Origin: an uncultured Holophagaceae bacterium | GTDB taxonomy: Bacteria; Acidobacteriota; Holophagae; Holophagales; Holophagaceae | Length of the DNA: 64,000 nt | Assembly (NCBI GenBank): GCA_903913215.1 | Contig: CAIWKE010000037.1 | Location: 1-64,000, forward strand | Reading direction: 5' to 3' | Shown here: positions 57,497 to 60,099 of the stretch, piece by piece | Position numbering within the stretch: position 1 is the first letter of the stretch | Layout: every line of letters starts with the position of its first letter | Program-made: the position numbers and the translations under genes | The notes under the pieces: generated by a model | What the model was told of the DNA's origin: nothing | Databases searched by the model: none | The model's input: the letters and a program-made list of their open reading frames with translations, nothing else

Positions 57497-58237
57497 TTAC
57501 CCCAGCCCCAGTCGCGCCTTGAGGCCTGGTGCGGCGCCTCGACTGACTTCGAGTTCGACGCCGCCCTGGAGGCGCACGAGCAGGCGGCCGGACTCGCCGG
57601 TCTGCACGCCGACCACGGCTTCGGGGCGCAGCAACAGGTGGCGGTGGCCGCGCACCACGCGGCCCCCCAGGGCTGCCTCAGCCTCGGCCAGGGTCTTCCA
57701 GGTGGTGCGCAGGCGCTCGCCCACGAAGGCCCAGACCGTCTCGTCCTCCAGGAGGAAGTGGGTGGTCTTGGCCAGGTCCACCAGCACCAGGCCGCTGCCT
57801 GCCTTCACGGGAAACCGGAAGGGCCCTGCGGCGCGGGGAGTCTCGGGCGTCGGCACGGTCCCCCGGGCTCGCAGGCGCCCGAGGGTGGTGGCCAGGCGTT
57901 CGGCGGTGACGGGCTTCAGGAGGTAGTCCGTGGCGGCCTGCTCAAAGGCCCGCACCGCGTGCTCCGCATAGGCCGTCACGAAGACCACGGGCAGGGGTCG
58001 GGGCAGGTCCAGGGAGACGTCCAGGCCCGTGAGCCCCGGCATCTGGATGTCCAGGAAGAGGGCGTCCGCGGGCTCCCCGCTCGCCAGCCACGCCAGCACG
58101 GAGGGACCGTCCTCCAGCTCCGCCACCACCTCGCAGCCCGCCTCACGCAGGAGGCGGCAGAGGCGCCGCAGGTTGAAGGGCTCGTCCTCGGCCACCAGGA
58201 CGCGGAGGGATGCCTGAGGCAGGGGCAAATGGGTCAT
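57497..58237 (-). CDS. LytTR-family response regulator
   Basis: 246-residue regulator. The receiver domain (residues about 11-125) has the acidic pair in VAEDE, phospho-acceptor Asp63 in LFLDIQMPG, TAYAEHA and the LKPV lysine. A LytTR DNA-binding domain occupies about 140-240 (HFLLEDETVWAFVG, LRPEAVVGVQTGESGRL). The ATG overlaps the kinase stop by ATGA (58234-58237), pairing them as one two-component system. The regulated promoter may be that of the Spy-like gene just upstream. Confidence 0.9.
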   Translation of the reverse strand: MTHLPLPQASLRVLVAEDEPFNLRRLCRLLREAGCEVVAELEDGPSVLAWLASGEPADALFLDIQMPGLTGLDVSLDLPRPLPVVFVTAYAEHAVRAFEQAATDYLLKPVTAERLATTLGRLRARGTVPTPETPRAAGPFRFPVKAGSGLVLVDLAKTTHFLLEDETVWAFVGERLRTTWKTLAEAEAALGGRVVRGHRHLLLRPEAVVGVQTGESGRLLVRLQGGVELEVSRGAAPGLKARLGLG

Positions 58238-59343
58238 GCCTGCACCTCCACCCGGAGTTCCGCCACAGTCCAGTCGCCTTCCCGGCGCAGGCTCAGGGCC
58301 TCAGGAGGCGCGCCCAGCAGGTCCAGGCGCTCCCGCAGGTTCCGCAGGCCGAGCCCCGTCGGATCCGCAGCCCCAGACCAGGGCCCGGTGTTGGCCACCC
58401 GGACGCAGAGGCTGGGGCCCACATGGGTCACGTGCACGTCCAGGTCGCCGCCCCCCACGGCCTTGGACACCCCGTGCTTGAGGGCGTTTTCCACCAGGGG
58501 TTGGATCATGAGGGGCGGGATCTCGAGGGCATCCAGGGCCGGGGGCCAGTCCCAGCGTTCCCGCAGGCGCTTCCCCAGGCGGATCCGCTCTAGGGCCAGG
58601 TGCTTTTCCACCAGCTCCCGCTCGGCCCCCAGGGGTGCCCGCAGGCGGGAGCCGTGATCCAACAGGGCCCGCAGCAGATCCGAGAGGTTCACCAGCGCCG
58701 CCTCGGCGGCCTGGGGGTCCTCCCGCACCAACTCCGTGAGGCCGCTGATGGCGTTGAACAGCACGTGGGGATTCATCTGCCCCTGGAGGGCCCGGGCCTG
58801 GGCTTCCTTGGCGGCTCGGCGGGCTGCCTGGGTCTGGAATTCCGCCTTCTCCCGATCCGCGAGCATCCAGCCCAACAGAAGACCGAAGCAGAGGTGGGCC
58901 ACGCCCAGACCCCAGAGGCGGGGGTGGATGGGCAGGGCCCAGGGAGCCGGGCCGGGCGGCCCCATGGGCCCCATGTGCAGCGTGGGGCCCTGGCCCATCC
59001 GGCCCATGCCCCGACCGGGCCCCATGTGGGCGGGCGCGGCCGCATCCAGGGCCAGGAGCAGGCCCAGGGTCAGGAGCAGCATCCAGGGCAGGGCCTGGAG
59101 GGCCCCGCGCAGCAGCCCCGCCATGGGTGCCTCATCGCCGCTCCACTGCCAGGGCAGGGGCGCCAGCACCAGGAAGAGGGCCACCCACAGGGAGGGCGCC
59201 AGCAGGTCCACGAGGCCCGGCTCGGGCAGGCCCATGAGGACGCGGCTGAGGTTCCATACCAGCCCGAACAGCAGCGCAGCGCCCCAGGTCCCGGGGCGCT
59301 GCAACCGCTGGCTTGTGCTGCTGAGAACCGCTGAGGCGCGCAT
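58234..59343 (-). CDS. LytS-type sensor histidine kinase with Met/Gly-rich loop
   Basis: 369-residue membrane kinase. Four hydrophobic segments (about 19-37, 47-63, 84-100, 143-162) leave one long loop, residues 101-142, predicted periplasmic, with the composition HMGPGRGMGRMGQG and LHMGPMGPPGP. The kinase half has His193 in MNPHVLFNAI, ERIRLGKRL, the N box LVENALKHG and G box GLGLRNLRERL, the LytS/YpdA layout. GAGG lies before ATG 59343. It is between the Spy-like gene and the regulator gene. The loop resembles the tail of the Spy-like protein, suggesting both bind the same ligand, possibly copper; this is inference. Confidence 0.88.
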   Translation of the reverse strand: MRASAVLSSTSQRLQRPGTWGAALLFGLVWNLSRVLMGLPEPGLVDLLAPSLWVALFLVLAPLPWQWSGDEAPMAGLLRGALQALPWMLLLTLGLLLALDAAAPAHMGPGRGMGRMGQGPTLHMGPMGPPGPAPWALPIHPRLWGLGVAHLCFGLLLGWMLADREKAEFQTQAARRAAKEAQARALQGQMNPHVLFNAISGLTELVREDPQAAEAALVNLSDLLRALLDHGSRLRAPLGAERELVEKHLALERIRLGKRLRERWDWPPALDALEIPPLMIQPLVENALKHGVSKAVGGGDLDVHVTHVGPSLCVRVANTGPWSGAADPTGLGLRNLRERLDLLGAPPEALSLRREGDWTVAELRVEVQA

Positions 59344-59368
59344 GGACCCTCAGTCTAGGCGTTCGGGT

Positions 59369-59962
59369 TCACTTGGTGGGCTTTTCGGCCGGGACTCCCG
59401 GACAATCCTGGGGGTGCTGGCCCTCGTGACCGGGATGCCCTTGCCCCATGTCGTGGCCCATGCCCCGACCCATACCGGGCCCCATGCCAGGACCGCCGGG
59501 GCCCATGCCCATACCGCGCCCCATGCCGGGGCCCATGGGCATCTGCTCGAACTTGGCCTTCTGCTCCGGCGTCAGCAGGGGAAGGATCTCCTGGCGGAGG
59601 GCCCGGTGCTCCAGCAGCAGGTCGAACTGGGCCGCCGAAACCTTGTCGTGGGCTGCGCGGAGGGCGTTCACATCTGCGTTCTTGGCCATGGCCTCGTGCA
59701 GCGCCTTCCCGGCGGTCTGGGCGGCCTCCTGCTTGGCCTCGAGGGTCTTCTGGTGGCGCTCGTGGATGGCCTTGAACTGGGTCTTCTGGGCTTCACTGAG
59801 GTTCATGCCTCGGAAGCCATCCATGCCGCCACGATGGAAGCCGGGGCCAGCGCCCGGTCCGGAGCAGGTGCCGCCGGGGCCGCGGTCCCGGGCCACAAGG
59901 GCGACGCCAAGGGTCACCAGGGCGAGGGTGAGGGCGGCGAGACGAAGGGGATGACTGATCAT
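59369..59962 (-). CDS. Spy/CpxP-like periplasmic protein with Met/Gly/His tail
   Basis: 197-residue exported protein. The signal region is LRLAALTLALVTLGVALVA. The helical core (residues about 54-141) has LTxxQ-type motifs NLSEAQKTQ and LLTPEQKAKFEQM typical of Spy, CpxP and related metal-stress chaperones. The last 55 residues are low-complexity MGPGMGRGMGMG followed by MGHDMGQGHPGHEGQ, rich in Met and His, as in copper- or zinc-binding tails. GGAGG lies 6 bp before ATG 59962. It is the first gene of the unit with the LytS-type kinase and LytTR regulator (25-bp spacing). Binding metal is inferred. Confidence 0.87.
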   Translation of the reverse strand: MISHPLRLAALTLALVTLGVALVARDRGPGGTCSGPGAGPGFHRGGMDGFRGMNLSEAQKTQFKAIHERHQKTLEAKQEAAQTAGKALHEAMAKNADVNALRAAHDKVSAAQFDLLLEHRALRQEILPLLTPEQKAKFEQMPMGPGMGRGMGMGPGGPGMGPGMGRGMGHDMGQGHPGHEGQHPQDCPGVPAEKPTK

Positions 59963-60099
59963 GGGATGCCTCCTGGCTGGGTGGGCGGTGCTTCCGTCCA
60001 CACCATGAGATACGCCTAGCGGGGCCAGAGTGGCAGCGCATCCGCGAATGACAGAGCCGGGGGGGCGAATGACAGTGGCAAGAGGCTGAACTGCGTCGG

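Follow-up and report, generated by a model that had tools for sequence, protein, structure and literature searches.

The locus described here bears on the question of what four-helix (4-TM) sensor kinases of the AlgZ/LytS type sense, given how short their periplasmic loops are. The window that we analysed is a stretch of 64,000 nucleotides from an uncultured Holophagaceae bacterium (contig CAIWKE010000037.1, positions 1 to 64,000). Its source lineage is Geothrix (Acidobacteriota), a group of soil and sediment bacteria, and its nearest named loci are those of Geothrix species and Holophagaceae MAGs.

An operon for a Spy-like protein, a 4-TM kinase and a LytTR regulator

Three minus-strand genes follow one another in the window: a gene for a Spy/CpxP/CnrX-like exported protein (59369–59962), a 4-TM PF06580 kinase gene (58234–59343) and a LytTR response regulator gene (57497–58237), the last two overlapping by ATGA at 58234–58237. 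The original prediction, made from the letters of the window, had these three reading frames and their ATGA coupling in the right places. It had also pointed to an unusual composition shared by the tail of the Spy-like protein and the only long loop of the kinase; the two sequences that it quoted are exact in the window and the likeness is real. Thirty-residue segments with at least four Met and at least six Gly are rare. Of 128 rough gene calls, covering the window, a second stretch of the same contig and five stretches around orthologous operons, only 8 have one (some short genes were merged or missed, so this is an order-of-magnitude check), and five of these eight are the window kinase, its orthologues or a Spy-like tail.

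The Spy-like protein (197 aa; reading frame, Pfam, AlphaFold and Foldseek/VIA) has a signal peptide, a helical LTXXQ/Metal_resist core and a disordered tail. It scores above the cut-offs of both PF13801 Metal_resist (4.3e-9, 37.0 bits, cut-off 29.2) and PF07813 LTXXQ (7.5e-9, 36.7 bits, cut-off 24.3), and falls below those of the NCBIfam Spy equivalog (43.5 bits, cut-off 174) and CpxP models (29–32 bits, cut-offs 148–238). Judged by these profiles, it is a member of the family, yet not Spy or CpxP proper of E. coli. AlphaFold gives the core the antiparallel Spy/CpxP/CnrX fold with pLDDT >90; because the reference used in several analyses (59372–59959) leaves out both the initial Met and the stop codon, AlphaFold residue numbers are one below those of the full protein. 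CnrX, a metal sensor of solved structure, ranks first among the fold matches of the core (Foldseek probability 1.00, a modest E of ~0.01, Z 10.9), with NccX, ZraP, CpxP and Spy also in the top rows. Helical bundles reach middling Z scores against many unrelated chains, so the fold search serves to rank family members and it is the Pfam match that carries the family claim. The Met/Gly/Pro-rich C-terminal tail (59372–59542, minus strand), delimited by its sequence, its pLDDT (mostly <60) and its covariation with the kinase loop, reads MPMGPGMGRGMGMG...GHDMGQGHPGHEG...DCPG and holds 9–10 Met, four His and one Cys (QDCPG).

The kinase (369 aa; Pfam, AlphaFold, orthologues) matches PF06580 His_kinase at 3.1e-16, with a weak HATPase_c match besides. 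It had been called LytS-type, which is right as to its catalytic family; the LytS 5TM sensor domain, however, is absent from its Pfam matches, and its layout is instead AlgZ/FimS-like. The four N-terminal hydrophobic helices of the AlphaFold model lie at residues 17–37, 44–60, 77–102 and from 141. Between the third and the fourth (residues 101–139, about 103–140 in the AlphaFold model; 58927–59043, minus strand) runs the Met/Gly/Pro-rich loop, AHMGPGRGMGRMGQGPTLHMGPMG, which is predicted to be disordered (pLDDT about 48–58) and which is marked both by the AlphaFold model and by the Met enrichment of Spy-linked kinases described below. Since the catalytic domain is cytoplasmic, topology would place this loop in the periplasm, where it is the sole long one predicted. 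The regulator matches Response_reg (3e-20) and LytTR (3.8e-6) in Pfam, and its nearest curated NCBIfam model is BtsR, under that model's cut-off. The operon thus pairs a PF06580 His_kinase with a LytTR regulator.

A predicted LytTR operator

Upstream of the spy-like gene lie three LytTR/AlgR-like direct repeats with a 21-bp period, CCGTTCG / CTGTCATTCG / CTGCNATTCG, at 60087–60095, 60066–60075 and 60045–60054 of the minus strand; together they form the predicted operator (60045–60095), which was delimited by a footprint derived from 28 operons and by pattern and promoter-model scans. LytTR operators typically consist of ~9-bp repeats with a 12-bp spacer and are often autoregulatory (PMC6193735), and the core site of AlgR, CCGTTCGTC (PMC4064291), resembles the first repeat of the Spy-like operon. 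Direct repeats ~21 bp apart upstream of the operon are the arrangement by which an autoregulatory LytTR promoter is defined (PMC6193735, PMC4064291). The only match without mismatch in the window genome is the spy-like promoter, and a promoter model built from sequence alone finds one strong match (57–91 bits) in each Geothrix genome with the main operon, its scores elsewhere staying at or below 27 bits. Because each operon-bearing genome has one strong LytTR-like site, the Spy-kinase-LytTR operon appears to regulate itself, its regulator presumably binding this operator. The repeats also precede the Spy-like gene in several other genera. In the search for a wider regulon, by strict pattern and by promoter model, the operon alone scored high.

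The best secondary matches (L232:2807-2893, L233:3055-3140 and L235, G030:C70:3481-3579) lie upstream of DUF2202 lipoprotein genes. These promoters, from three Geothrix genomes (G022, G021, G030), resemble that of the operon in their GGCATCTCTTGG leader and in repeats with a 21-bp period. The core of their repeats differs, being GCCACTAAGC-like, for which reason we reject these genes as part of the operon's regulon; their repeats probably belong to another LytTR regulon.

Downstream of the operator repeats, a leader block, TCTCxTGxxGTGGACGGA, varies little or not at all across 18 aligned promoters; in the window it is GGCGTATCTCATGGTGTGGACGG, between operator and start codon (59994–60017, minus strand). 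Its conservation is stricter than a promoter seems to require, and in many genomes it is followed by a short inverted repeat, for example CGGATGATCCG. An RNA element at this block is possible.

The Met-rich loop accompanies the Spy-like gene

Orthologues of the kinase, 55–77% identical, are present in most of the Geothrix genomes searched, and every one with enough upstream sequence has the Spy-like gene directly upstream, at 11–40 bp. The whole trio was found again in other Holophagaceae genera, and the co-occurrence in relatives that the original prediction proposed as a check therefore holds across Geothrix and beyond. The observation that it had named as fatal to itself, kinases that lose the loop while keeping the Spy-like neighbour, was not made: the loop is there in 41 of 41 Spy-linked kinases. 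Loops with at least two Met per 30 residues are found in 36 of the 41 Spy-linked kinases versus 7 of 41 unlinked ones (Fisher 9e-11; the counts lack phylogenetic independence, and for the unlinked kinases a pattern, not manual inspection, fixed the loop borders). A Met-rich loop beside a Spy-like neighbour is thus the rule but not universal, as 5 of the 41 Spy-linked loops have fewer than two Met per 30 residues. Those of L041, L050, L128 and L196 are almost Met-free, with zero Met in L128 and L196. Some 40 kinase paralogues of more distant relationship have no Spy-like gene beside them and, with few exceptions, no Met-rich loop; their loops are Pro/Arg-rich, Gly/Arg-rich or unremarkable.

The tail behaves likewise. 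In an orphan Spy paralogue that many Geothrix genomes carry, the Gly fraction of the tail is 0.12 versus 0.31 in operon-linked proteins, and tail Cys occurs in 1 of 23 orphans versus 23 of 41 operon-linked proteins (here too, the counts lack phylogenetic independence). Most orphan Spy paralogues are without a Gly/Met tail. The second Spy-like gene of the window genome (G000:C26, L143:4971-5480) has neither a kinase neighbour nor a Met/Gly tail. Two exceptions, L247 and L248 (G026:C56, G035:C155), have long Met/Gly-rich tails with no Cys; neither G026 nor G035, both incomplete genomes, yielded the main operon.

Two further observations came from the survey. A contig labelled as a Methylococcales MAG (L051, QVQF01000139.1) carries a Geothrix-type operon with 64% identity at the kinase, for which reason we regard the contig as probably mis-binned. 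The paralogous kinases L126 (G012), L127 (G021), L129 (G030), L130 (G026) and L175 (G074) have short Gly/Arg-rich loops, such as YRGGRGGGQGAG, and directly upstream of each is a barrel-like exported protein with a Gly/Arg/Ser/Thr-rich segment. Here too the kinase loop and its neighbour may match in composition.

Loop and tail covary

Covariation of loop and tail was measured over the 41 operons by independent contrasts (PIC) and PGLS, on a tree of the kinase catalytic domain. Loop Met follows tail Met (PIC r=0.54, PGLS p=2.5e-4), and no other residue fraction of the tail, taken singly, predicts loop Met as well as Met does; the control comparison of tail Met with kinase-domain Met was null. 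Loop Met also follows the presence of tail Cys (PGLS p=6e-6, with about 8 gains or losses of Cys, an association found post hoc), the median loop Met being 0.154 with tail Cys (n=23) versus 0.056 without (n=18). This second association persists when GC and the Met content of both the Spy core and the kinase domain enter as covariates (p=3.6e-6), and inside the genus alone (p=8e-6). It can be followed in close relatives, where the tail motif is MNPDCP (LNPDCP in L053) versus MNPDGP in L037 and MSPDGP in L050: loop Met goes from 5 with the Cys motif to 2 in L037 and 1 in L050. The loop-tail covariation that had been proposed as a check is therefore present after phylogenetic correction, for tail Met and tail Cys alike. 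The strongest partner variable, however, is tail Cys, which the original prediction did not mention, and this weakens its reading.

Not all measures point so clearly to the tail. Loop Met also correlates with Met of the Spy core (PIC r=0.48), so part of the signal may be lineage-wide, and sign tests on the contrasts for Met are not significant (22+/15-). Taking the evidence together, we consider it probable that loop and tail function and evolve as a pair within a two-component unit that regulates itself.

What the pair may read

The original prediction had inferred that the system senses a metal, directly or by competition with the Spy-like tail. Three things speak indirectly for a metal: the covariation concerns the soft ligands Met and Cys, the Spy-like core has a CnrX-like fold, and a heavy-metal-type two-component system (L267:9282-11271) lies divergent to the operon in a single genome, G082, which belongs to another genus. 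The kinase of that system scores 294.8 against the TIGR01386 heavy-metal-sensor model, above its cut-off of 292.55, and its regulator has TIGR01387 as its best match, below cut-off. No metal operon turned up in the other neighbourhoods that we read (G035, G026, G093 and C26 of the window genome), the operon itself includes no copper transporter or other metal gene, and our searches found no metal regulon. CnrX binds its metal in its core. The chance that loop and tail share a thiophilic metal as ligand, with Cu(I) or Ag(I) the likeliest, seems to us to fall a little short of even.

The strongest competing explanation needs no metal. The chaperone would bind the kinase loop as a built-in client and be titrated off by misfolded proteins, and the tail would owe its likeness to the loop to competition for the same chaperone surface. 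The Spy-like core is homologous to Spy and CpxP, and there is a precedent in CpxP, for which direct inhibition of CpxA and titration by misfolded proteins are proposed (PMC6737893). Any shared binding surface, moreover, predicts loop-tail covariation, and Arg too covaries between loop and tail, though weakly. Misfolding feedback by itself, however, leaves unexplained why covariation is strongest for Met and tail Cys and why CnrX is the nearest fold, and we hold it to be a rather unlikely account of the locus.

A second objection is that the likeness is functionless, GC-rich genomes such as these growing Gly/Pro/Arg/Met low-complexity linkers in unconstrained loops and tails. The loops do vary freely in length, and many of the paralogous kinases have Pro/Arg-rich ones. 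The Met codon, however, is not GC-rich, and loop Met does not follow GC (p=0.22), by which we reject GC-driven composition as the sole cause; Met-rich loops are tied to a Spy neighbour, and the tails to a kinase neighbour. Nor do loop and tail have excess similarity at the DNA level: their longest shared DNA averages 9.9 nt versus 10.0 after synonymous shuffling, which also rejects gene conversion between them. Neutral convergence is accordingly improbable.

Least probable, by a little, is that reactive chlorine or oxygen species oxidise the Met and Cys of loop and tail, the module reporting periplasmic redox damage: the Met and Cys covariation suits oxidisable residues as well as metal ligands, but we saw neither a methionine sulfoxide reductase nor another redox gene in the operon, Geothrix is known mainly as an anaerobic metal reducer, and the His-rich loop and tail that operons L035 and L047 have instead suit metal ligation better, even if His covariation overall is lost after phylogenetic correction (r=0.16).

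A proposed mechanism and its relation to known systems

Returning to a metal as the shared ligand, we put forward the following model. The 4-TM kinase would sense through its disordered periplasmic loop, and the Spy-like protein would use its tail to act on this loop, giving feedback as an accessory regulator in the manner of CpxP on CpxA or ZraP on ZraSR. Less certainly, loop and tail would compete for a thiophilic metal, for instance Cu(I) or Ag(I), or else bind it jointly, the tail Cys bridging to the Met residues of the loop. Rising metal, or misfolded protein titrating the chaperone, would alter kinase activity; the LytTR regulator would then raise its own operon, and the extra Spy-like protein would damp the response. 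That the three genes form such a self-contained, autoregulated envelope-sensing unit, with loop and tail as partners and the metal ligand included, we rate at about even. A more specific version, in which the only periplasmic loop of the kinase mimics in composition the disordered tail of its chaperone, and tail Cys and loop Met either make up one soft-metal site between them or compete for it, is rather doubtful. Partner mimicry may be a more general design, as hinted by the Gly/Arg-rich loops of kinases that adjoin barrel-like proteins with GR/GT-rich segments.

Each part of this model has relatives, and each relative differs. The Cupriavidus metal sensors CnrX and NccX are the top structural match of the Spy-like core, at fold level; CnrX controls an anti-sigma/sigma pair, not a kinase, whereas the partner of the Spy-like protein here is a kinase. 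The periplasmic sensor domain of CpxA is a folded one and its partners are of the HisKA/OmpR type, in place of the short disordered loop, PF06580 domain and LytTR regulator found here. CusRS/CopRS, to which the two-component system adjoining the operon in G082 is similar in broad type, are likewise of the OmpR/HisKA type; their periplasmic sensor domain is larger and they are not known to have a chaperone partner, whereas the present operon has a short loop, a chaperone partner and a PF06580/LytTR pair. AlgZ/AlgR, BtsS/BtsR and LytSR do combine a PF06580 kinase with a LytTR regulator; we know of no Spy-like accessory with a matching segment for any of them. A literature search for LTXXQ together with LytTR found no paper joining both. 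For AlgZ, four TM helices are predicted, and its sensor role was unknown at the time of review (PMC4064291).

The closest functional parallels are chaperones that govern kinases. CpxP (with CpxA/CpxR) and Spy (BaeSR/Cpx) share the Spy/CpxP fold and the LTXXQ motif with the protein described here, and CpxP regulates its kinase (PMC6737893). ZraP is a zinc-dependent periplasmic chaperone of the Metal_resist/Spy family that represses its two-component system ZraSR (PMC4987338), and so resembles our case in linking such a protein to a two-component system; its structure (3lay) gives a weak sequence match to residues 78–174 of the Spy-like protein, reaching into the tail (E 0.093; fold Z 9.0). Whereas zraP is divergent from sigma54-dependent zraSR, the genes here form one operon, whose kinase is a 4-TM protein of the AlgZ type and whose LytTR regulator has a predicted operator of 21-bp repeats. 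Periplasmic Cu(I) sensing by two-component systems is described for CusRS/CopRS (PMC7763554). The accessory-chaperone principle is already known from CpxP and ZraP (PMC6737893, PMC4987338); what is new here is an AlgZ-type kinase and LytTR regulator with an accessory chaperone, the composition mimicry, and the co-evolution of Met and Cys.

For the question of what short-looped 4-TM kinases sense, evolution singles out the loop and a partner protein, loop Met and tail Cys are the residues predicted to matter, and the operator is available as a reporter. If the model is true, the principle of CpxP and ZraP, an accessory chaperone regulating its kinase, would extend to a different signalling family.
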